From an uncultured Bacteroidales bacterium (GTDB lineage Bacteria > Bacteroidota > Bacteroidia > Bacteroidales > UBA932): 12,950 nucleotides of DNA. Below the pieces are notes generated by a model that was not told the origin of the DNA, searched no databases, and worked only from the letters and a program-made list of their open reading frames with translations. A program made the position numbers and the translations under genes. Numbering within the stretch: the stretch's first letter is position 1; each line of letters starts with the position of its first letter. Where the stretch lies: NCBI GenBank assembly GCA_946617545.1, contig CAMOKK010000020.1, forward strand, positions 1 through 12,950, written 5' to 3'. Positions 3,192-12,950 of this stretch are shown here, in pieces.

Positions 3192-4606
3192 CAGCCTTTG
3201 ATGATTCTTTGGGCTACGGCGATAACCTCGTTGCCCAGGGCCTCGGCGGCCTGAGGGGTGGAGGCTTCGGAGTAGATGCGGATGATGGGCTCGGTGTTGG
3301 ACTTGCGAAGGTGTACCCAGGTCTTATTGGCCTCGAAGTTGATCTTGACACCGTCGATGTCGTTGATGTTCTCCTTGGCGTAAATCTTCTTGAGCTCTCC
3401 CAGAATCTTGTCTATGAGGGCGCTGTCGCTGAGCTGAATCTTGTTCTTGGCAATGAAGTACTGCGGATAGGTTTTCTTGAGCTCGCTCACCTTCATCTTC
3501 TTATGGGCCAGGTTGCTCAGGAACAGGGCCACGCCCACCATGGCGTCGCGGCCGGCATGGATGGCGGGATAAATCACGCCTCCGTTGCCTTCTCCGCCGA
3601 TGAGGGCGCCCACCTCGTGCATCTTGGTGGTCACGTTCACCTCTCCCACGGCGGCGGCGTAGTACTTGCCTCCGTGCTTTTCCGTCACGTCGCGAAGGGC
3701 CCGGGTGCTGGAAAGGTTGGAAACGGTGGCGATGGGCTTGCCTTCCTTCTGGGCGATTTCACAGAGGTAATCGGCCACGGAAACCAGGGTATATTCTTCC
3801 ACGAAGGGCTCTCCGTTTTCGCAGATGAAGGCCAGGCGGTCCACATCCGGATCTACAGAAACGCCCAAATCGGCCTTTTCCTTAACTACCGTCTCGCAGA
3901 GGTCCACCAGGTTGGCGGGAAGGGGTTCGGGATTGTGGGCAAAGTCTCCGGTGGGGTTGCAGTTAAGGCCGATACACTTGACGCCCAGGCGTTTGAGCAG
4001 CCGGGGCATGATGATGCCGCCCACGGAGTTGACGGCATCCACCACCACGGTGAAATGCGCGGCCTTGACGGCCTCCACGTCTACGGCCGGCAGGGCCAGC
4101 ACGGCATCCAGGTGCTTATCCGTGAAATCTTCCTCCTCGATGCTGCCCAGCTGGTCCACTTCGGCGAAGTTGAAATCTTCCTTTTCGGCCAGGTCCAGAA
4201 CGGCCTGGCCTTCGAGGGCCGTGAGGAATTCTCCCTTGTCGTTAAGGAGCTTCAGGGCATTCCACTGGCGGGGATTGTGGCTGGCGGTGAGGATGATGCC
4301 GCCGTCGGCCTGGGCAAAGAGGACAGCCATTTCCGTGGTGGGGGTGGAGGCAAAGCCGCATTTCACTACGTCTATGCCGCAGCCGATGAGGGTTCCCACC
4401 ACCAGCTGCTCCACCATGTCGCCGGACATGCGGGCGTCCTTGCCCACTACAATCTTATAGCGCTCCCCGTTGGGCCGGGGTTTGCGCTGAGGAAGGGTGG
4501 CGGCATAGGCCGCCGTGAATTTGACTACGTCGATGGGCGTGAGGGCGTTGCCGGGCTGGCCGCCGATGGTGCCCCGGATACCGGAAATGGATTTGATAAG
4601 TGTCAT
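3191..4606 (-). CDS. glmM: Phosphoglucosamine mutase, 471 aa
   Basis: This enzyme interconverts glucosamine-6-phosphate and glucosamine-1-phosphate, the step before GlmU on the way to UDP-GlcNAc, peptidoglycan and lipid A, in the cytoplasm. All alpha-D-phosphohexomutase landmarks are present: the SGIRGTIGG start (8-16), the active-site loop TASHNP with phosphoserine Ser109, the metal loop DPDVDR (252-257), the sugar-specificity loop GGEGNGG (337-343), and the phosphate-binding loop RKSNTEP (434-440) near the C-terminus. The length is slightly above the 445-450 residues of the enterobacterial enzyme. Phosphomannomutase or phosphoglucomutase activity is possible within this superfamily, but the GEGNGG loop favours GlmM. 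It is first in a two-gene unit with the NamZ-like gene and is read from a well-formed promoter that overlaps the divergent DUF486 promoter region. Confidence 0.93.
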   Translation of the reverse strand: MTLIKSISGIRGTIGGQPGNALTPIDVVKFTAAYAATLPQRKPRPNGERYKIVVGKDARMSGDMVEQLVVGTLIGCGIDVVKCGFASTPTTEMAVLFAQADGGIILTASHNPRQWNALKLLNDKGEFLTALEGQAVLDLAEKEDFNFAEVDQLGSIEEEDFTDKHLDAVLALPAVDVEAVKAAHFTVVVDAVNSVGGIIMPRLLKRLGVKCIGLNCNPTGDFAHNPEPLPANLVDLCETVVKEKADLGVSVDPDVDRLAFICENGEPFVEEYTLVSVADYLCEIAQKEGKPIATVSNLSSTRALRDVTEKHGGKYYAAAVGEVNVTTKMHEVGALIGGEGNGGVIYPAIHAGRDAMVGVALFLSNLAHKKMKVSELKKTYPQYFIAKNKIQLSDSALIDKILGELKKIYAKENINDIDGVKINFEANKTWVHLRKSNTEPIIRIYSEASTPQAAEALGNEVIAVAQRIIKG

Positions 4607-4636
4607 ATTGTATAAGATTTTCTTCGTTTAATCCTG

Positions 4637-4668
4637 CAAAGTTATTAATTTTGCGGCCCAATTACAAA
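4637..4668 (-). promoter_or_regulatory. glmM promoter (TTTG, 20-base spacer, TAACTTTG)
   Basis: The minus strand has TTTG at 4665-4668 and TAACTTTG at 4637-4644, separated by 20 bases, matching the Bacteroidota consensus. The -7 box ends 30 bases before the glmM ATG. It interleaves with a plus-strand promoter for the divergent gene. Confidence 0.85.
4646..4653 (+). promoter_or_regulatory. Promoter -7 box TAATTTTG of the DUF486 gene
   Basis: TAATTTTG fits TAnnTTTG and ends 22 bases before the ATG at 4676. Only a weak -33 match (TTCG at 4623-4626, 19-base spacer) is visible. It lies one base from the opposing glmM -7 box, so the two promoters probably compete for polymerase. Confidence 0.6.
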
Positions 4669-4675
4669 TGAAACC

Positions 4676-5044
4676 ATGAACGGATTCTGGACCATCCTTA
4701 TGCTCATCTTCTCGAACGTGTTCATGACGTTCGCCTGGTATGGCCATCTCAAACTGCAGGAAATGAAAATTTCCACCGGCTGGCCGCTTATCCTCATCAT
4801 TCTCTTTTCCTGGGGAATAGCCTTTTTTGAGTACTGCCTTACCGTGCCGGCCAACCGCATTGGCTTCCAAGGCAACGGCGGGCCCTTCAACCTGATGCAG
4901 CTCAAGGTAATCCAGGAGGTGATTTCCCTCACCATCTTCACCGTCATCGTCACCTTCCTGTTCAAGGGGCAGCCCGTCCAGTGGAACCATATCGCCGCCT
5001 TTTTCTGCATGATTTTGGCTGTTTTTTTTGTGTTTTTGAAATAA
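4676..5044 (+). CDS. DMT-superfamily small membrane protein (DUF486), 122 aa
   Basis: A 122-residue inner-membrane protein with four predicted helices (about 4-22, 36-56, 78-97 and 103-121). The stretches FMTFAWYGHLK (16-26), PANRIGF (58-64) and FNLMQLKVIQEVISL (71-85) are typical of the DUF486 family, placed in the drug/metabolite transporter superfamily. Single-domain four-helix members are thought to work as dimers; no substrate is known. It is read divergently from glmM. No terminator follows the stop, and the -33 box of the tRNA promoter begins only three bases later, so some transcripts may run into the tRNA gene. Codon use is like that of the neighbours. Confidence 0.9.
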   Translation: MNGFWTILMLIFSNVFMTFAWYGHLKLQEMKISTGWPLILIILFSWGIAFFEYCLTVPANRIGFQGNGGPFNLMQLKVIQEVISLTIFTVIVTFLFKGQPVQWNHIAAFFCMILAVFFVFLK

Positions 5045-5047
5045 AAA

Positions 5048-5078
5048 TTTGGAGATTCAGATTTTTGTTGTACCTTTG
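5048..5078 (+). promoter_or_regulatory. tRNA-Glu promoter (TTTG, 19-base spacer, TACCTTTG)
   Basis: TTTG at 5048-5051 and TACCTTTG at 5071-5078 with a 19-base spacer give a full Bacteroidota promoter. The tRNA 5' end is 12 bases downstream, so the primary transcript has only a very short leader. Confidence 0.85.
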
Positions 5079-5089
5079 CACTCCCACAT

Positions 5090-5164
5090 GCTGGGTTCGT
5101 ATAACGGTTAGTACTCGAGATTCTCAATCTCGCAATAGGAGTTCGATTCTCCTACCCAGTACCA
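5090..5164 (+). tRNA. tRNA-Glu, anticodon CTC
   Basis: A complete cloverleaf folds by eye. The acceptor stem pairs GCTGGGT (5090-5096) with ACCCAGT (5154-5160), with a G-U first pair. The D-arm has GTAT/GTAC and GG in its loop. The anticodon stem CGAGA/TCTCG (5116-5120, 5128-5132) encloses loop TTCTCAA with anticodon CTC at 5123-5125. The variable loop is four bases, and the T-arm is AGGAG/CTCCT with loop TTCGATT. CCA is encoded (5162-5164). CTC reads GAG, a glutamate codon used heavily in this GC-rich window. Confidence 0.95.
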
Positions 5165-5197
5165 AAAGCGCCAGGATTGTACTCCCGGCGCTTTTTT
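5164..5197 (+). terminator. Intrinsic terminator of tRNA-Glu
   Basis: The inverted repeat AAAAGCGCC (5164-5172) and GGCGCTTTT (5187-5195) encloses 14 bases and ends in six T (5192-5197). It starts at the last base of the tRNA CCA end. The T-run ends six bases before the phosphatase ATG, leaving almost no room for a separate leader for that gene. Confidence 0.85.
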
Positions 5198-5203
5198 GCT
5201 GAA

Positions 5204-6010
5204 ATGGCACTTTTTGAGAACATAGTGAACGCCCGCGACCTGGGCGGCATCCGCATCGGCCATCAGGTGGTGCGGGAAGGCATGCTGCTGCGCACCGCCC
5301 ACCTGCACGACGCCTCGGACGAGGATGTCCGCAGGCTGTCGGAGCACTACCGGCTGCGGCGCATCTTCGACTTCCGCTCCTACCCGGAGGCATCCCTGCA
5401 GCCGGACCGTCCCGTTCCGGGCGCCGAATACCTGATGCTCCCCACCCTGGACGTATCGGCCGAACAGCAGACGGGCGAAGCCATGCCGGAAGAGATGTGG
5501 GTGAACCTGGAAAAGCACATCGTACGCCTCTCCTTCATGAAAATGTTCCAACAGAAGGCCCGCGAGCTGTACCCCTCCCTCATCCTGAGCGAATTCTCCC
5601 AGCTCCAGTATGCTTCCTTCCTGAACCTGATCCTGGAAACGGAAGAGGGCGCCGTCCTCTGGCACTGCTCGCAGGGAAAGGACCGCACGGGCATTGGCGC
5701 CGCCCTCATCCTGGGGGCCCTGGGGGCCGACAGGGACACCATCATCCGGGACTTCGACCGTTCCAACGACAGTTATCGGCCCTTGGTGGAAAAACTTTGT
5801 GCCGATGTGGAAGCGGCCGGCGGCGGAGAGGATGAAAAAGAGGTAATCCGCGCCTTCATGGGCGTGAGCGTGAGGAATTTCTGCCATGCCCTGGATGTCC
5901 TGGAAGCCAACTGGGGCTCCATCCCCGGCTATCTGGACGAGCAGATGGGCATAGACGAGGGAGACTTGGCGAAACTCCGCGCCCGATACCTGGAGCCCTG
6001 CGCAAAATGA
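5204..6010 (+). CDS. Protein tyrosine/dual-specificity phosphatase, IphP type, 268 aa
   Basis: This is a cytoplasmic phosphatase of the Y_phosphatase3 family. The N-terminal signature NARDLGG (9-15) and the P-loop HCSQGKDRTG (154-163, nucleophile Cys155, phosphate-binding Arg161) are intact. IFDFRSYPE (54-62) matches the conserved aspartate/arginine strand of the family. There is no signal peptide. Relatives act on phosphotyrosine, phosphoserine/threonine or phosphoinositides, so the substrate is open. The ATG at 5204 is chosen over a TTG at 5177 because family members begin just before NARDLGG and because the TTG lies inside the tRNA terminator hairpin. Expression is puzzling: there is no room for a normal leader, and only a poor -7-like sequence CTTTTTTG (5191-5198) precedes the start. 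The exporter operon begins 24 bases downstream with its own promoter. Confidence 0.93.
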   Translation: MALFENIVNARDLGGIRIGHQVVREGMLLRTAHLHDASDEDVRRLSEHYRLRRIFDFRSYPEASLQPDRPVPGAEYLMLPTLDVSAEQQTGEAMPEEMWVNLEKHIVRLSFMKMFQQKARELYPSLILSEFSQLQYASFLNLILETEEGAVLWHCSQGKDRTGIGAALILGALGADRDTIIRDFDRSNDSYRPLVEKLCADVEAAGGGEDEKEVIRAFMGVSVRNFCHALDVLEANWGSIPGYLDEQMGIDEGDLAKLRARYLEPCAK

Positions 6011-6022
6011 GAAAAAAATTAG

Positions 6023-6030
6023 TACCTTTG
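6023..6030 (+). promoter_or_regulatory. Exporter-operon promoter, -7 box TACCTTTG
   Basis: TACCTTTG is an exact TAnnTTTG match and is identical to the tRNA-Glu box. It lies in the 24-base gap after the phosphatase stop, only four bases before the ATG at 6035, so the mRNA would be leaderless or nearly so. The -33 region is poor. It implies that the export operon can be read independently of the phosphatase gene. Confidence 0.7.
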
Positions 6031-6034
6031 TCGC

Positions 6035-6901
6035 ATGAACAGCGACAGCCCCTTTTCCACTGAAAGCCGTCAGAGAAACCTAAGCAGTCCCGACCAGATT
6101 GGGACCGTCCTCAAAATAACGGCCCTGCCCACGTACCTGCTCGCCTTTACCGTCCTGCTGCTGATAGGCGCCTTCTTTGTCTGGGGCTTCCTGGGCACGG
6201 TTTCGGACAAGGTCTATTACAGCGGCGTGGTATTCCCCCTCCAAGGGACTTCCGACGTCTCGCTTCCCAACAAAGGCATGATCCGCACCATGTTCGTGCA
6301 TGGCGGAGACCACGTTACCCGTGGGCAGACCGTGGCCCTGGTCTCCGTGGGAGACAGCTACAGCATCCTTACCAGCACGGTGGAGGGCACCGTGATAAGC
6401 ACCAAGGTGGACAACGAACCCTTCGAGGCCTTCGAGCCCATCCTGAGCGTGGTGGACGGCATGGACCCCCGGAGCGGGAAGGCCATGCTCATCGCCTACG
6501 TGGACAACGCCGGCCAGCGGCACATCAAGGAAGGCATGGGCGCCCAGGTTTGGCCGGAAAACGAAAAAAGGGACGAAATAGGCTATGTGAGGGGCCGCAT
6601 CACCCGCATTGACCGCTACCCCGTGGCGGCCGATGTGGTGCGCCAGACCCTCCGGAGCGAAGAAATGGCCGACAGGCTCCTCACCGCCGGGACCACGATG
6701 TACCAGGTGAACATCGAGCTGTTCACCTCGGCGGAGAATCCCGCCGAGTACGACTGGTCCTTCGGAGAGCCGGACGACGTGAACATGAATATCGGCACCT
6801 ATTGCTCGGTCCTGACGGAAACCCGTCGCCGGAGCATGTTCCGCTATCTGTTTGACTCGGCCCGGACGCGCTTCCGCGCCGTAAAACTGCGCCTGGAATG
6901 A
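6035..6901 (+). CDS. NHLM-type membrane-fusion (HlyD-like) secretion protein, 288 aa
   Basis: This is the inner-membrane adaptor of the exporter. A cytoplasmic N-tail with LSSPDQIGTVLKIT (16-29), one helix (about 31-54) and the following GTVSDKVYYSGVVF segment match the start of NHLM bacteriocin system secretion proteins, where the same order of 'SSPEQL', helix and 'GxxxxKVxGxG' occurs. Two lipoyl half-motifs follow (about 73-104 and 108-138), then a beta-barrel region (about 148-230) and a short basic C-tail. The two lipoyl halves are joined directly: the coiled-coil hairpin that normally contacts TolC is missing, making the protein much shorter than the 400 or so residues usual for HlyD adaptors. 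The stop overlaps the next start by four bases (ATGA). The start is set by the -7 box four bases upstream. Family placement is by recognition, not by search. Confidence 0.8.
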   Translation: MNSDSPFSTESRQRNLSSPDQIGTVLKITALPTYLLAFTVLLLIGAFFVWGFLGTVSDKVYYSGVVFPLQGTSDVSLPNKGMIRTMFVHGGDHVTRGQTVALVSVGDSYSILTSTVEGTVISTKVDNEPFEAFEPILSVVDGMDPRSGKAMLIAYVDNAGQRHIKEGMGAQVWPENEKRDEIGYVRGRITRIDRYPVAADVVRQTLRSEEMADRLLTAGTTMYQVNIELFTSAENPAEYDWSFGEPDDVNMNIGTYCSVLTETRRRSMFRYLFDSARTRFRAVKLRLE

Positions 6902-8622
6902 AAAACAACGGCACAGTGGCCCTGGTCCTGCGCTTCATGCGGGGCAGCATGGGCTTTTTCGGAGTCACGTTCCTGCTGCTGATCGGGGACATGGCCTCCC
7001 ATGTGCTGCCGCCGTTCTTTCAACAGGTTTTCACGGACAACATCATCACGCAGAAGAACCCGGAGTGGTTCACGCCCCTGATGATTTTCTACATCCTGCT
7101 CTTTGTACTGGAACTGGTGATGTGGCTGCTGCTGAACCCCCTGCGCAAGAGGGAGTTCGCCAAGCTGGGCATCAACGCGTCGTCCCGCTACGTGATCAGC
7201 CTGCTCAAACTGCCCATGGATGCCATCGACCGTTTCTCGGCCGGTGAGCTGGCCGCCCGCTACTCCGGCATCAAGAAGATTGGCACCACCATGGACCACC
7301 TTTCCTTCGCCCTGGTGCTGGTGGTGCGGCCGGTCCTCTGCGCCTGGCTGCTCATGATGTACAGCTGGAAACTGGGCCTGGTGGTCATTCTCTCCATGCT
7401 CTCGCTGCTGGCGGTGATGCGCCTCACGGCCAAGTCCATCAAGAAGAAAGCCCGGGGTTCGGAAGTGACGGACGCCCGGCTGCAGGGAGTCACCACCACC
7501 GGCATCAAGAACATAGAGACCATCAAGTCCATGGGCGGCGAGCGCATCTTCTTCTCCAAGTGGGAAGAGGCCTATGTAAACGCCCTCAACGCCCGTGTAC
7601 GCACGGCGTCCGGCGCCATGACCACGGGTTCCCTCCCCCTGCTGGTGCTGAACTTCTGCAACGCCCTCATCCTCTGCCTGGGTGCCTGGTACATCCTGCA
7701 GGGAGAACTTACTCCGGGTATGCTGCTGGCCTCCCAGGCGCTGGCGGTGAGCATCAACTTCCCCATCAATTCGTTCATATCGGCCACCCAGGAGCTCTTC
7801 CGCTCCCATGCGGCCATGGAACGCCTGGAAGAGGTGGAAGAGGCGGCCCGGGGCCGGGAGCTGGTGATTCCGGATCCGGAGTCCCTGCCGGACAGCAACA
7901 AGCTTACGGGAGAGGTGGAACTGCGGAACGTCACCTTCGGCTACGACCGCAGCCAGCCGCCGGTGCTCCGGAACTTCTCCCTCACCATCCATCCCGGGGA
8001 AAGGGTGGCCTTCGTGGGCTTCTCCGGCTGCGGAAAAAGCACCATCGCCAAGCTCATCTCCGGCCTGTACGAGCCCTGGGAAGGCGAAGTCCTGCTGGAC
8101 GGCATCCCCGTGCAGCAGGTGAACCGGGCGGTCAAGAACAATTCCCTCTCCGTGGTGAACCAGGACATCACCCTCTTCGAGGGCACCATCGAGGACAATA
8201 TCAAGATGTGGGACAGTTCCATCGAGGACTTCTCCATGGTATTGGCGGCCAACGACGCCCAGATCCACCAGGACATCGCCAACCGGCCGGGCGCCTACCA
8301 GTCCCTGCTCAGCGAGAACGGCAAGAACTTCAGCGGCGGACAGCGCCAGCGCATAGAGATTGCCACGGCCCTGGCCAAAGACCCCACCATCCTCATCATG
8401 GACGAGGGCACATCGGCCCTGGACCCCAAGACCGAAGACCTGGTGATGCAGCATGTGGGGCACCTGGGCATCACCACCATCCTGATCGCCCACCGCCTGA
8501 GCACCATCCGGGACTGCGACTGCATCTACGTGATGGAGCGCGGCCAGGTGCTGCAGAAAGGCACCCACGAGGAACTCCTGCAGCAGGAGGGGCTGTACAA
8601 AGAACTGATGAAATACGCCTGA
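6898..8622 (+). CDS. NHLM-like ABC exporter subunit lacking the C39 peptidase domain, 574 aa
   Basis: This is a half-transporter with a membrane domain (helices within about 18-40, 58-80, 135-175 and 245-285) and a C-terminal ATPase. Motifs are intact: Walker A GFSGCGKST (374-382), Q-loop Gln422, signature FSGGQRQR (478-485), Walker B with Asp502 and catalytic Glu503, and H-loop His532. The membrane part, with VLPPFFQQVFTDNII (36-50) and FSAGELAARYSGI (113-125), resembles the 'peptidase/ATP-binding' member of NHLM bacteriocin transporters. Those begin with about 130 residues of C39 peptidase that trims leader peptides. Here the protein starts directly at the first helix, and the four-base overlap with the upstream gene leaves no room for a lost domain. 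It probably pairs with the next ABC subunit as a heterodimer. Without the peptidase it may export an untrimmed or non-peptide substrate. Confidence 0.88.
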   Translation: MKNNGTVALVLRFMRGSMGFFGVTFLLLIGDMASHVLPPFFQQVFTDNIITQKNPEWFTPLMIFYILLFVLELVMWLLLNPLRKREFAKLGINASSRYVISLLKLPMDAIDRFSAGELAARYSGIKKIGTTMDHLSFALVLVVRPVLCAWLLMMYSWKLGLVVILSMLSLLAVMRLTAKSIKKKARGSEVTDARLQGVTTTGIKNIETIKSMGGERIFFSKWEEAYVNALNARVRTASGAMTTGSLPLLVLNFCNALILCLGAWYILQGELTPGMLLASQALAVSINFPINSFISATQELFRSHAAMERLEEVEEAARGRELVIPDPESLPDSNKLTGEVELRNVTFGYDRSQPPVLRNFSLTIHPGERVAFVGFSGCGKSTIAKLISGLYEPWEGEVLLDGIPVQQVNRAVKNNSLSVVNQDITLFEGTIEDNIKMWDSSIEDFSMVLAANDAQIHQDIANRPGAYQSLLSENGKNFSGGQRQRIEIATALAKDPTILIMDEGTSALDPKTEDLVMQHVGHLGITTILIAHRLSTIRDCDCIYVMERGQVLQKGTHEELLQQEGLYKELMKYA

Positions 8623-8625
8623 GCC

Positions 8626-10731
8626 ATGAGTAATCTTTTGTTCGACCAGCTGGTTCAGCGCATTGAAGGAGACCGGAAGGCCCTCAACGAGGCTTCCGAG
8701 GTGTTCCGCGGCATGATTGACCGCAAAACCTGGCTGCGGCTCACGCACCAGCGGGATATTCCGGTGGATATCAGGCGGCTGGAGGAGATTTTCTACCAGC
8801 AGCAGATTTTCTTCCGCCAGATCAAGCTGGACGGCCCGTGGTGGAACCGCTGCAGCGGCAAGGTGCTGGCCTTTACAAAGGAGGGAGACATCCCCGTCAT
8901 CCTGGCCCCGCGTTTTGCCGATTATGCCTTCCTGGACCCCAAGAGCGGCAAAAACTGCCGGGCCTCCAAGGACGGCGACCTGCTGAAGCCGGAAGCCTTT
9001 TCCCTCTGCTATCCCCTGCCGGAAGGGAAGCTCACCACCGTCTCTTTCCTGAAATATGCCCTGCTGCAGCTGAGCGTCTACGACTATCTCTGTGCCCTCC
9101 TGGCCTGCCTGGGCGTGGTAATCCTCACCATGGTGACGCCCTACATCTGCAAGCTGCTGTTCAACGAGGTCATCCCTTCCGGAGACTCGGCCCAGCTGCT
9201 GCCCATCGCGGTGCTGCTGTTCAGCGCGGCGGCCGGACTGGTGATGGTGCAGCTTTCCCGCAACTTCCTGGTGGTGCGCATGAAGGACAAGACGGAGTAT
9301 GCGCTGCAGGCCCCGCTGATGACGCGCCTGCTGGCCCTGCCCACCACTTTCTTCAAGCGCTTCGCCCCGGGAGACCTTTCCAACCGGGTGCTCTCCGTGG
9401 TGAGGCTGTTCACCCAGCTCTCCGAGGACATGCTCTCCACCATCCTCTCCCTGGCGTTCACCGTGGTCATGTTCATCCAGTTCTTCACCTACGGCGGTCC
9501 CCTGCTGTACACGGGCATCCTGGTGCTGGGGGTGTACATGCTGGCCATCTACAGCGTGTACTATTACCGCAAGAAAGTGCAGGACAGCGCCAACGCCAGC
9601 GCATCCAAGCTCACGGGCCTCATCTACAACCTGGTGGCCGGAGCCCAGAAAATCCGCACCAACGGGGCCGAAATCAGGGCCTTCAAGCACTGGGCGGTGG
9701 CCTATGAGCCCTCCGAGCCCTACAGCAGCCGCTATCCCGCCATGTTCACCATCGGCAACTCCCTCAGCTACAACGCCCGTCTGCTGCCGCTCATCGTGAC
9801 CATGCTGGCGGCCTGGCACTACGGGCTGGGCCTGTCGGACTACATTGCCTACTGCAGCGTCCTCACCCTGGCCACCCAGGCCATCGAGAACTTTGAGCGC
9901 ATCACCAAGGACGTAGCCCTGCTGGGGCCGGAGCTCAAGCTGTGCACCCCCATCCTGGAGGCCGAATCAGAGACGCAGGCCGGCACCGAGCTGCTGCAGA
10001 GCGTGAGCGGAAACATCTCCATCAACGGTCTCAAGTTCCGCTATTCCCCGGACATGCCGTACATCTTCGACGGCCTGGACCTGCACATCCATCCCGGAGA
10101 CTACGTAGCCCTGGTGGGCCCTTCCGGCTGCGGCAAGAGCACGCTGGTGCGCCTGCTGCTGGGCTTTGAAAAGGCCGAGAGCGGCTCCATCTTCTACGAC
10201 GAGCACAACCTGGAAGACGTGAACCTGCCCAGCCTGCGCCGCTATTGCATGAGCATCTGCCTGCAGGACGGCCAGCTGGTGGAAGGGACCGTACGGGACA
10301 ACATCCTCTTCGGCAACGACTGGTACGACGACGGGGAAGTCTGGGAAGCCGCCCGCATGGCCGCCCTGGACAAAGACATCGAAGGGATGCCCCTGGGGCT
10401 GGAGACGCCCATATCGGCCGACGGGCAGGGCGTATCCGGCGGGCAGCGCCAGCGTATCCTGATGGCCCGCGCCCTCATCCGCAAGCCCGACATTATCTTC
10501 CTGGACGAGGCCACATCGGCCCTGGACAACATAAGCCAGCATGTGATTACCGAAAACCTGGCCCGGATGAAATGCACCCGCATCACCATCGCGCACCGCA
10601 TGAGCACCATCCGGCAGTGCAACCGTATCATCGTGTTAAACGAAGGGAAGGTGGCCGAGGACGGCAGCTACGACGAGCTCCTGGCCAAGGGCGGCCTTTT
10701 CTCTGAAATCATTAAACGCCAGACCGTATGA
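8626..10731 (+). CDS. NHLM-like ABC exporter subunit with N-terminal accessory domain, 701 aa
   Basis: This is the second half-transporter. Residues 1-140 form a soluble domain with LDGPWWNRCSGKVLAF (68-83), an LDPKSG turn (103-108) and a PLPEGKL segment (130-136). That layout is typical of the non-peptidase 'ATP-binding protein' of NHLM bacteriocin systems and lacks the C39 Cys/His active site. Helices follow (about 150-178, 190-212, 268-312 and 385-410). The ATPase has Walker A GPSGCGKST (498-506), Q-loop Gln547, signature VSGGQRQR (603-610), Walker B with Asp627 and Glu628, and His657. Both NBDs of the pair keep their catalytic glutamates, so neither looks degenerate. The gap to the preceding ABC gene is three bases, and the stop overlaps the TolC-like start by four bases. 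No Shine-Dalgarno is seen, so translation is probably coupled. Confidence 0.88.
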   Translation: MSNLLFDQLVQRIEGDRKALNEASEVFRGMIDRKTWLRLTHQRDIPVDIRRLEEIFYQQQIFFRQIKLDGPWWNRCSGKVLAFTKEGDIPVILAPRFADYAFLDPKSGKNCRASKDGDLLKPEAFSLCYPLPEGKLTTVSFLKYALLQLSVYDYLCALLACLGVVILTMVTPYICKLLFNEVIPSGDSAQLLPIAVLLFSAAAGLVMVQLSRNFLVVRMKDKTEYALQAPLMTRLLALPTTFFKRFAPGDLSNRVLSVVRLFTQLSEDMLSTILSLAFTVVMFIQFFTYGGPLLYTGILVLGVYMLAIYSVYYYRKKVQDSANASASKLTGLIYNLVAGAQKIRTNGAEIRAFKHWAVAYEPSEPYSSRYPAMFTIGNSLSYNARLLPLIVTMLAAWHYGLGLSDYIAYCSVLTLATQAIENFERITKDVALLGPELKLCTPILEAESETQAGTELLQSVSGNISINGLKFRYSPDMPYIFDGLDLHIHPGDYVALVGPSGCGKSTLVRLLLGFEKAESGSIFYDEHNLEDVNLPSLRRYCMSICLQDGQLVEGTVRDNILFGNDWYDDGEVWEAARMAALDKDIEGMPLGLETPISADGQGVSGGQRQRILMARALIRKPDIIFLDEATSALDNISQHVITENLARMKCTRITIAHRMSTIRQCNRIIVLNEGKVAEDGSYDELLAKGGLFSEIIKRQTV

Positions 10732-12146
10732 AAAAGGGCTTGATGCTATTCCTCCTCCTCTGCGGAGCCTCCCTCCTGAGCCGGGCCCAGAGCCTGGAAG
10801 AGGTGATAAGGCTGGCCCAGGACAGCACCGTCACGGCTTTCCAAAGCCGATATGAATGGGAATCGGCCCAGGCCCGGAACGCGCAGTTCGAAGCCCTTCG
10901 CAAGCCCCAGCTGAACCTTCACTTCAAGCCCAACTACTACCGGATGATTATCGACCCGTTCCGGGACTATGTGTATCTGCGCAACTTCGACCGCTTTTCC
11001 GCATCGGCCCAGCTGATGCTCACCCAGAAGGTGCTGCCCTTTGGCGGAGACGCCTATGTGGGCACCCAGGCCCTCTGGAGCGAATATTTCACGCGGGACA
11101 ACCAGAACCGGCCGCGGGACTTCGTGGCCACGCCCCTCATTGTCGGGTACCAGCAGGCGCTGCTGGGATACAACCCCTTCCGCTGGGAGAAAGCCGCGGA
11201 AGACCAGCGCTTAGAGGCCGCCCGCAAGGAATACAGCACCCGCCTGTACCTCATTGCCGAAGAAAGCGCCAAGCGCTATTTCCGCCTGGTATGCGCCCAG
11301 GGCCGCGTGGACATGTGCGAGCGCACCCGCAGGACGGCCGATACGCTCTACGCCATCGCGAAGGAGAAGGCGGGCATCGCCATGATAACCCTGGCCGAGC
11401 TCCGCTCCCTGGAGCTGCAGCGGCTCAATGCCACCAATGCGCTGCTGTCGGCCCGGAATGAAGAAAAACTGGCCCGGGAATCCCTGGCGGCCTATCTGCG
11501 GGTTGACGAAAGCTTCTTCCGGGACGAGCGCCTGGAGATTCCCACCCGCACCCGGGAAATCCGGCTCACGCCGGAGGACGCGCTGCAGCTGGCCCGCAGC
11601 GGCAGCCCCGTGGTGCAGCAGCGGCAGACCGCCCTCACCGAAGCCCGCGGCCTGCAGGAAAAGGCCCGCAAGGAGCGGGGCGTCAAGGTGGGCGTGGACC
11701 TGAATATCGGCATGCAGCAGATTAACGACCACTTCCTGGGTGCCTACAAAAATCCGCAGTTCTATATGCTGGGAGCCGTCACCCTCACCGTTCCGCTGCT
11801 GGACCACGGGGCCGCCCGGAAGGGACATGCCGCCGCAGCAGCCTGGCAGGAGCGTCAGGAGCAGGCCCTCCGCGAGGCCGAACGCGCCCTTCAGGAAGAC
11901 GTGCTCACCACCCTGGAAAACCTCCGTTCCCATGAGCAGCTGCTGCAGATGACACAGGAAGCCGTGGCCATGGCCGATGACGTGTTCGAGCTCACGGCCG
12001 AGAACTACGCCAACGGCCTCTGCGACATCAACACCTACTCCCTGGCGCAGACCCGGCGGGACAACGCCTACAACCAGCACCTGACGGCGCTGGCCGGTTA
12101 CTGGACCACTTACTATCATTTATTAACCCTCACGCAGCATGAATAG
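10728..12146 (+). CDS. TolC-like outer-membrane efflux protein, 472 aa
   Basis: This is the outer-membrane channel. A signal peptide (Lys2-Lys3, hydrophobic core, likely cleavage after Ala20) is followed by the two structural repeats of the OEP family. The first helical hairpin includes GIAMITLAELRSLELQRLNA (216-235). The second includes ENYANGLCDINTYSLAQTRR (425-444) and ends in an aromatic WTTYYHLL tail. A PLLDHGAARKG stretch (356-366) matches the family's conserved beta-strand/helix junction. The N-terminal barrel part is rich in aromatic strands (about 60-150), as expected. It would connect the ABC pair to the outside through one of the two adaptors in the operon. It overlaps the upstream ABC gene by four bases and the downstream adaptor gene by eight. 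Confidence 0.92.
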   Translation: MKKGLMLFLLLCGASLLSRAQSLEEVIRLAQDSTVTAFQSRYEWESAQARNAQFEALRKPQLNLHFKPNYYRMIIDPFRDYVYLRNFDRFSASAQLMLTQKVLPFGGDAYVGTQALWSEYFTRDNQNRPRDFVATPLIVGYQQALLGYNPFRWEKAAEDQRLEAARKEYSTRLYLIAEESAKRYFRLVCAQGRVDMCERTRRTADTLYAIAKEKAGIAMITLAELRSLELQRLNATNALLSARNEEKLARESLAAYLRVDESFFRDERLEIPTRTREIRLTPEDALQLARSGSPVVQQRQTALTEARGLQEKARKERGVKVGVDLNIGMQQINDHFLGAYKNPQFYMLGAVTLTVPLLDHGAARKGHAAAAAWQERQEQALREAERALQEDVLTTLENLRSHEQLLQMTQEAVAMADDVFELTAENYANGLCDINTYSLAQTRRDNAYNQHLTALAGYWTTYYHLLTLTQHE

Positions 12147-12950
12147 GCATCTTCCCCTCCTTGTTCTCCTGGCACTGGCATCGTGCCACTCCCGCGTATC
12201 GGCCCCGGCGCCTCCCCAGGAAGCCGCTGTAACGGTGGAGCAGGCTCCGGATAACGGGAACCAGAGCCTCCAGCGCACCATTGAAAGCGAGGGCTTCTCC
12301 AGCAAGGGAAGCATCCAGGCCGTCACGGAAGTGCCTGTGTACAGCCGTATCAGCGAGCAGATTGTGTCCTTCGACATTGAGCTGGGCCAGCGGATTCGCA
12401 AGGGAGAGGTGGTGGTGCGCCTGAGCCGGAGCATGCTGGAAGACAAGATTGCCCGGAGCAAGGCCGAGCTGGAAAAGGCCGAATACCAGTACCAGGCCAT
12501 TCTGATGGGCCAGGGATACAAGCGAAGCCAGCTGGACGAGGCTCCCGACGAAATCAAACGGCAGGCCCGCATCAACAGCGGCTACAACACGGCCCTGGCC
12601 TCCCTGAAGCTCCTGGAGCACGAGCTGGAGTGCTGCACCATCACCGCGCCCATCAGCGGGGCCGTGAGCCGCCTGGGCGCCACCCTATACAGCGCCGCCA
12701 CGCCCGGCGTCCCGCTCTTTTACATCGTGGACACCGAACACCTGAAAGTGTGCTTTGACGTATTGGAGAACGAGCTTCACAAGTTCCAGAAGGGAACCCC
12801 CATCCAGGTTATCTCCGTGGCCTATCCCTCCGAGATTCACAAGGCGGAAGTGTCGGCCGTCAGTCCCGTGGTGGAGAGCAGCGGCATGGTCCGCCTGGAG
12901 GCCACGCTGCAGCCCCATCCGCACCTGATGCCCGGCATGACGGCCATTGT
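12139..12950 (+). CDS. Lipoprotein membrane-fusion protein, RND/MacA type (partial, 3' end cut off)
   Basis: The frame is open from ATG 12139 to the window end (270 codons). Residues 1-16 are a lipoprotein signal with lipobox Leu13-Ala14-Ser15-Cys16. Then come a first lipoyl half with an IELGQRIRKGEVVVRLS turn (80-96), a short helical hairpin rich in Lys, Glu and Ala (about 97-162), a second half-lipoyl with ITAPISGAVSRLG (168-180), and beta-barrel segments through LMPGMTAI at the edge. This is the layout of periplasmic adaptors of RND or MacAB-type tripartite pumps. Unlike the adaptor at the start of the operon it has a hairpin and is lipid-anchored rather than helix-anchored. It overlaps the TolC-like gene by eight bases. 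In such operons the next gene is often an RND or MacB-like permease; that gene would lie outside the window. Confidence 0.88.
   Translation, partial: MNRHLPLLVLLALASCHSRVSAPAPPQEAAVTVEQAPDNGNQSLQRTIESEGFSSKGSIQAVTEVPVYSRISEQIVSFDIELGQRIRKGEVVVRLSRSMLEDKIARSKAELEKAEYQYQAILMGQGYKRSQLDEAPDEIKRQARINSGYNTALASLKLLEHELECCTITAPISGAVSRLGATLYSAATPGVPLFYIVDTEHLKVCFDVLENELHKFQKGTPIQVISVAYPSEIHKAEVSAVSPVVESSGMVRLEATLQPHPHLMPGMTAI

Follow-up and report, generated by a model that had tools for sequence, protein, structure and literature searches.

A C39-less branch of NHLM-type ABC exporters encoded together with TolC and two adaptors in Bacteroidales

Described export systems and the locus under study

The closest described system is the NHLM (NHLP) exporter. 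In the available text of its description it is a trio of proteins represented by the profiles TIGR03794, TIGR03796 and TIGR03797, and TIGR03796 is defined as an ABC transporter with a peptidase (PMC2887384). According to the accessible part of another source, peptidase-containing transporters accompany precursors with a GG motif in Bacteroidales (PMC10352776). Here we analyzed a stretch of 12,950 nucleotides (in the following "the window"), which represents positions 1-12950 of contig C20 in the genome assembly G000 (1.30 Mb, 178 contigs, 57% complete). The source bacterium probably lived in a rumen, and many records of close relatives, which were not counted, name rumen, reticulum or other ruminant-gut samples. 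From position 6035 to its end, the window contains five genes on the same strand, which encode an HlyD-like adaptor (MFP1), two ABC subunits (ABC1 and ABC2), a TolC-family channel, and a putative lipoprotein adaptor (MFP2).

The locus has the same three parts as the NHLM trio in the same order, HlyD-ABC1-ABC2, and the N-terminal domain of ABC2 has been kept. However, its ABC1 lacks the C39 peptidase domain, the three proteins score below the curated cut-offs, no open reading frame (ORF) for a GG-leader peptide was found nearby, and TolC and a second adaptor belong to the operon. Cyanobacterial clusters hold an additional ABC transporter without C39, as far as the accessible text goes (PMC3140520), but we take this transporter to correspond to ABC2, and not to the C39 loss seen here. 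In the available portion of a publication on rumen isolates (PMC13289728) the terms NHLP and NHLM are absent, and within the accessible open-access literature no description of a peptidase-less branch of NHLM ABC1 proteins was found.

An ABC exporter, a periplasmic adaptor and TolC that are encoded together are also typical for type I secretion (HlyB/HlyD/TolC and colicin V-type systems). In contrast to these, the window encodes two different ABC proteins, an ABC1 without C39, and two adaptors, the first of which is hairpin-less in its model. With MacAB-TolC and AcrAB-TolC the locus has in common that MFP2 has the AcrA/MacA fold with a hairpin, but the partner of MFP2 is an NHLM-type ABC pair, and not MacB or an RND pump. 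The window exporter would be an NHLM/type I hybrid in its way of working, and by curated criteria it stands outside the NHLM equivalogs. Similar cassettes with C39, close in the tree, are L160 and L162 (Prevotella-type) and L189 (from the genus of the window). They encode an HlyD-like protein of 278-286 amino acids, ABC1, ABC2, an MFP2-like protein and TolC, but their ABC1 has 713-726 amino acids including C39, and the gene for MFP2 precedes that for TolC. A GG-leader ORF lies beside L160 and L189, and none was found at L162.

An ABC1 subunit without C39

The transport proteins were scored against NCBIfam profiles with their curated cut-offs, and ten proteins of the window were scanned in Pfam. 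A preliminary description of the window, based on its sequence, had proposed an NHLM-like trio with a first subunit devoid of C39, and both proposals are borne out. TIGR03794, TIGR03796 and TIGR03797 are the best families for MFP1, ABC1 and ABC2, respectively. ABC1 reaches 559.9 bits (cut-off 853.3) and covers positions 144-709 of the 710 positions of TIGR03796, whereas the C39-bearing relatives align from profile position 1 or 2 and pass or nearly pass the cut-off (L064 910, L160 886, L189 832). The values are 595.1 bits for ABC2 (cut-off 709.4) and 124.3 bits for MFP1 (cut-off 156.2), with residues 110-267 of MFP1 on profile positions 254-410. The C39-bearing relative L160 also remains below these two cut-offs, with 687.7 bits for its ABC2 and 103.1 bits for its HlyD-like protein. 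The Pfam scan did not detect PF03412 (C39) in ABC1, and a search of the incomplete G000 genome as assembled gave no match.

Close homologs that carry C39, named in the preliminary description as a sign of a start or assembly error, are missing among the matches listed. PF03412 is present in none of the best 120 of 7,944 ABC1 hits, which have lengths of 568-586 amino acids and comprise 37 near-copies of the window protein (99-100% identity) and 83 proteins at 77-88% identity. All 42 complete ABC1 copies called across 43 related loci, one of which belongs to the named strain Prevotella ruminicola KHT3, have 571-595 amino acids. Among distant relatives at 40-44% identity, all of the best 120 hits carry PF03412 and have about 726 amino acids, in a search with a profile built partly from C39-bearing rows. 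Therefore, the absence of C39 from ABC1 is not a start or assembly error. The ATPase motifs GFSGCGKST and SGGQ, which we take to be the Walker A and the signature motif, and the Walker B residues line up with those of the C39-bearing relatives. A search of solved structures with the ABC1 sequence says little, its list being topped by multidrug-resistance-type exporters with two half-transporters.

The branch is a widespread lineage, and it has C39-bearing relatives within the genus of the window as well as in a number of genomes that carry both types. Of 400 genomes of the window's genus (its own included), 27 contain an ABC1 relative at E <= 1e-120. Identity to the window protein is 55-100% for 22 of these proteins, and the other five are deeper relatives at 42-43%, four of them peptidase-less (L185-L188) and one with C39 (L189). 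Canonical C39-bearing NHLM ABC1 proteins above the cut-off occur in 3 of 393 genomes of the order and in 29 of 395 genomes of the phylum.

Two trees were calculated from the membrane and ATPase parts of ABC1, with the C39 region left out. In the first tree 26 peptidase-less rows group together at 100/100, six cassettes with C39 from Prevotella-type genomes are their sister group (97/97), Firmicutes rows with C39 follow (96/95), and all of them lie within the NHLM clade at 100/100. For the second tree 12 rows were dropped and seven were added, i.e., the C39-bearing L189 and six peptidase-less rows of deeper or intermediate position. All 27 peptidase-less rows are on one side of a branch with a support of 88/78, L189 comes next (90/77), the peptidase-less proteins group with the Prevotella-type C39-bearing cassettes and L189 at 98/99, and the NHLM clade has 100/99. 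Hence, the ABC1 core shares its descent with NHLM ABC1 proteins in both trees. They support an ancestor that would have been a C39-bearing NHLM exporter of GG-leader peptides, and the simplest reading is that the peptidase would have been lost a single time in the Bacteroidales branch.

Adaptors, substrate and competing explanations

The two adaptors seem to differ in their roles. The AlphaFold model of MFP1 (mean pLDDT 71.9) has strands at residues 99-105 and 108-113 and no helix between them. Its fold matches are MFP structures, and the best PDB match is BesA, with an E value of 1.3e-9 and a TM-score of just 0.40; a sequence search of solved structures returned none for MFP1. By alignment, the hairpin is also missing from the first adaptor in L120, a canonical system, and the trait is thus not unique to the window. 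MFP2 has 94.7 bits against TIGR01730 RND_mfp (cut-off 94.9), and its model, which was made with the 99% identical protein of L023, has AcrA and MacA as best fold matches (1.1e-16). The invariance of Cys16 suggests that MFP2 is lipidated and would thus be a lipoprotein. Judged from the models, MFP2 probably reaches TolC and MFP1 does not, and in analogy to AcrA and MacA MFP2 may dock onto the channel.

The operon with TolC and two adaptors is present as initially described, and it would encode a complete exporter across both membranes. ABC1 and ABC2 would pair in the inner membrane as a heterodimer driven by ATP, the hairpin-less MFP1 may clamp this pair on the periplasmic side, and MFP2 would provide the hairpins for docking onto TolC, as its fold indicates.

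The search for GG-leader ORFs covered 5 kb on both sides on the same strand and applied a regular expression to ORFs without overlap with called genes. In the window, the motifs used gave no small ORF resembling a GG-leader peptide, and none of the ten proteins scanned matched a radical SAM or LanM family; the proposed lack of all three holds by motif for the leader and within these ten proteins for the two enzyme types. GG-leader ORFs are present near none of the 43 peptidase-less loci, near 5 of 15 exporter loci with C39, which are of mixed types, and, with the lenient motif only, near 3 of 8 Firmicutes loci. A Fisher test of 0/43 versus 5/15 gave 6.6e-4, for related loci that are not independent. 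The C39-bearing loci scanned were 15 of 17 (L168 and L170 were left out, having no called ABC gene), L164 stems from the probably mixed bin G444, and three NHLP-like ORFs of L120 were not counted because they are on the other strand. Of 40 random background regions one had a strict hit and four had any hit. The peptidase-less loci look like background, and the GG linkage at C39-bearing loci is real, but far from complete. A looser scan gave five hits outside the C39-bearing set (peptidase-less L038, L045 and L065, Firmicutes L071, and the unrelated L074), none of which looks like a precursor by eye.

In the C39-bearing L189, from the same genus, a GG-leader ORF directly follows TolC; this 70-amino-acid candidate (14287-14499, + strand) has an amidohydrolase gene on its other side. 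No GG-leader ORF was found at L185-L188, L190 and L191. A 74-amino-acid ORF beside the C39-bearing cassette L160 of P. ruminicola KHT3 (10910-11134, - strand) is an unusual candidate precursor, with an N-terminal stretch like a membrane helix, a coiled-coil-like middle and the GG motif near its end. Leader profiles were also searched. TIGR03793 (NHLP leader) matched in none of 52 genomes and also in no control, and thus was uninformative. TIGR04149 matched in 2 of 44 cassette genomes, and TIGR03798 (Nif11 leader) in one of the 44 (G444) and in 5 of 8 Firmicutes genomes, with one of these six over the cut-off; the sensitivity of the Nif11 search is limited, as it missed a GG precursor readable in L064. 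A conserved neighbor as substrate was also considered and rejected, since of the two genes compared on each side of a cassette none was present in more than four further loci; exceptions were a STAS gene (six), antisense ORFs within the cassette, and the additional ABC pair of L051.

C39 seems to have been lost and GG-leader genes are no longer found adjacent to the cassette; therefore, a substrate that needs no GG cleavage is most likely. Repurposing for another substrate was one of three options offered in the preliminary description, and it fits best, because the GG-leader ORFs that were found accompany C39-bearing loci, and none were found close to peptidase-less loci. We consider it fairly probable that the NHLM-derived exporter has been repurposed in this way. 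Further points in favor are the low dN/dS values of the transport genes, the lack of a PF03412 match in 27 of 44 cassette genomes, and the models of the two adaptors, one hairpin-less and one with a hairpin. The likely cargo would be a peptide that either has no leader or is processed in another way, or else a lipid or small molecule, and the data do not choose between these.

Several observations weigh against repurposing after a single loss. The branch that indicates one loss has merely moderate support (88/78) once the deeper rows are included, and the MFP1 model is of moderate quality and was built from 19 alignment rows. The GG linkage is imperfect, as no GG-leader ORF was caught beside 10 of 15 C39-bearing and 5 of 8 Firmicutes loci, and the scan was limited to 5 kb on the same strand, so that a GG-leader substrate could be encoded elsewhere. 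In addition, PF03412 was matched elsewhere in 17 of the 44 cassette genomes, and its absence from the other 27, among them G000, G027 of the same genus and G429 (which contains the near-identical L023), is weakened by incomplete assemblies (completeness of 57% for G000 and 78% for G027).

A pump for the efflux of small molecules, lipids or drugs, with a real NHLM ancestry and a non-peptide task, is a special case that overlaps with repurposing, and we regard it as possible, though it is not our favored explanation. In its favor, both C39 and GG-leader ORFs in the vicinity are missing. Among 15 Prevotella-clade loci, four have an Amidohydro_3 gene and three a carboxylesterase gene nearby; among six deeper or intermediate loci the numbers are three and one, respectively, and neither gene type occurs in 40 background regions. 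However, an Amidohydro_3 gene is also found beside the C39-bearing L189 and does not track the C39 loss, none lies near the 28 loci of the clade to which the window belongs, and the enrichment was noticed afterwards.

It is unlikely that the exporter still moves a GG-leader peptide encoded elsewhere, the leader of which would be cut by a C39 protein from another locus, e.g., from a C39-bearing NHLM-type cassette of the same genome. Such a separate cassette exists in six cassette genomes (those of L031, L045, L053, L054, L057 and L065), and P. ruminicola KHT3 holds both the peptidase-less L045 and the C39-bearing L160. The 17 genomes with PF03412 also speak for cleavage in trans, although one of them, G444, is probably a mixed bin, because its contig L039 is labeled as a Clostridiales bin, yet carries a Bacteroidales-type cassette. 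In contrast, the 27 genomes without a match, the lack of GG-leader ORFs near all 43 peptidase-less loci and the rarity of leader profiles in the 44 genomes argue against it. Thus, the initial option of a peptidase encoded elsewhere is disfavored, and it retains the support of the 17 genomes.

It is very improbable that the locus encodes an ordinary MsbA-like or multidrug ABC pair with an accidental resemblance to NHLM. All three transport proteins score under the NHLM cut-offs, but ABC1 has 283.4 bits against the MsbA profile TIGR02203 (cut-off 602), in comparison to the 560 bits for NHLM; a best match to MsbA-type exporters, which would have spoken against the initial proposal, was thus not obtained. 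Moreover, ABC1 is nested in the NHLM clade in both trees, and the HlyD-ABC1-ABC2 trio is conserved together with the NHLM-type N-domain of ABC2. Finally, a gene-start or assembly artefact, for which the fragmented and incomplete G000 assembly might speak, is hardly conceivable in view of the overlap of the ABC1 start with the HlyD end, the uniform length of the complete copies, including that of P. ruminicola KHT3, and the best homologs without C39.

Gene layout, neighboring genes and implications

The features of the locus are listed in Table 1. The proposed tight operon of five genes is evident from the junctions, which are a 4-base overlap, a 3-base gap, a 4-base overlap and an 8-base overlap. 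MFP2 is about four residues short at the window end (274 amino acids in the near-identical L023 versus 270). Of 43 related loci, 31 had all five genes called in the order HlyD-ABC1-ABC2-TolC-MFP2, and 12 had one or more genes without a call (contig ends, antisense ORFs that overlap, and a TolC of 108 amino acids in L031). The latter (13823-14149, + strand) is located in a contig of 434 kb with neighboring genes of full length and represents a natural deletion or an assembly error. The dN/dS values for the window versus L024 are 0.12 for HlyD, 0.12 for ABC1 and 0.14 for ABC2. The first W of the WW pair in the N-terminal domain of ABC2 (residue 72) is invariant in nine sequences. The domain looks similar to C39 by eye, but a decayed C39 was rejected, as hhalign yielded a probability of 0.2% and an E value of 0.29 with small alignments of 9 and 8 rows. 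In the C39-bearing L189, ABC2 (616 amino acids) lacks most of this domain.

Table 1. Coordinates of the genes, domains and motifs of the exporter locus within the window
Feature	Position	Strand	Size or residues	Basis or remark
MFP1, HlyD-like inner-membrane adaptor	6035..6901	+	288 aa	best NCBIfam match TIGR03794
MFP1 predicted membrane helix	6131..6193	+	residues 33-53	helix in model; hydrophobic by reading
ABC1, NHLM-type permease-ATPase without C39 peptidase	6898..8622	+	574 aa	TIGR03796; no PF03412
ABC1 presumed Walker A, GFSGCGKST	8017..8043	+	residues 374-382	largely invariant in alignment with C39-bearing relatives
ABC1 presumed signature motif, SGGQ	8332..8343	+	residues 479-482	invariant in 9-sequence alignment
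ABC2, NHLM-type permease-ATPase	8626..10731	+	701 aa	TIGR03797, residues 49-699
ABC2 N-terminal domain with WW pair	8626..9060	+	about residues 1-145	aligns with Firmicutes NHLM ABC2
TolC-family outer-membrane channel	10728..12146	+	472 aa	PF02321, 75.1 bits
MFP2, putative lipoprotein periplasmic adaptor	12139..12950, open at window end	+	270 aa within window	TIGR01730, PF16576, PF13437
MFP2 putative lipidated Cys	12184..12186	+	residue 16	invariant in 17 sequences
MFP2 alpha-hairpin	12430..12630	+	residues 98-164	helices 98-124 and 137-147/149-164, high pLDDT

Upstream of the operon, a Y_phosphatase3 gene (5204-6010, + strand) stops 24 bases before HlyD. The pair is also present in the near-identical L023, and it was not seen beside the remaining loci whose flanking genes were compared. 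In L051, which is from a Prevotella metagenome-assembled genome, a second ABC1-ABC2 pair directly follows MFP2 (16081-19918, + strand), and two peptidase-less ABC pairs may share one adaptor set and TolC.

A few loci are flanked by putative regulatory genes. In L054 a TPR-SpoIIE-HATPase protein gene stops 2 bases upstream of HlyD, and 23 bases after MFP2 a STAS gene begins. L055 also has a STAS gene, and L190 and L191 have SpoIIE directly upstream. STAS also adjoins the C39-bearing L161, L163 and L165 and the Firmicutes loci L064 and L066-L068, and this module common to peptidase-less and C39-bearing loci fits common descent. However, SpoIIE, HATPase and STAS also occur together in one of 40 background regions, and of the 28 loci in the clade of the window just one has SpoIIE nearby, on the opposite strand, and none has HATPase or STAS; none of the three is present among the ten scanned window proteins. 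The background region, L211 of G468, has two SpoIIE matches in addition to HATPase and STAS, on a contig that differs from that of the cassette. In L165, which is from a Prevotella-type genome, genes for SpoIIE, radical SAM, PqqD, HATPase and STAS form a run upstream of the C39-bearing exporter (3673-8170, - strand), which is a candidate cluster for a ribosomally synthesized and post-translationally modified peptide with a partner-switching regulator.

The Amidohydro_3, carboxylesterase and lipoprotein-signal patterns are post hoc and represent leads only. Amidohydro_3 or carboxylesterase genes on the same strand were observed in L190 (13853-17080), L191 (15976-16822), L187 (17046-18908), L051 (2822-6264), L059 (7376-9040) and L065. 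L054 contains a gene for a phosphoglycerate mutase (iPGM) with a lipoprotein-type signal (16482-18122, + strand). Across 258,589 bp of Prevotella-clade loci a similar signal was matched eight times, as compared to one match in the 482,476 bp that represent the window's clade and none in 299,280 bp of background.

Taken together, we tentatively propose a peptidase-free NHLM branch that would have arisen by one C39 loss in Bacteroidales and would form a five-part pump, with MFP1 as clamp and MFP2 as dock, for a substrate class undescribed for the family, and some members of which would have retained the SpoIIE-kinase-STAS switch of their C39-bearing relatives; as a whole, this picture is plausible, but falls somewhat short of being probable.

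Cleavage by C39 is part of the definition of NHLM export, and genome miners find new peptides via such exporters. The branch described here is a warning that a resemblance to NHLM does not imply a bacteriocin. A whole branch without C39 is also a natural test of which parts serve transport and which serve processing. Paired experiments are possible, because C39-bearing relatives occur within the genus and in part share a genome with members of the branch, as in P. ruminicola KHT3.

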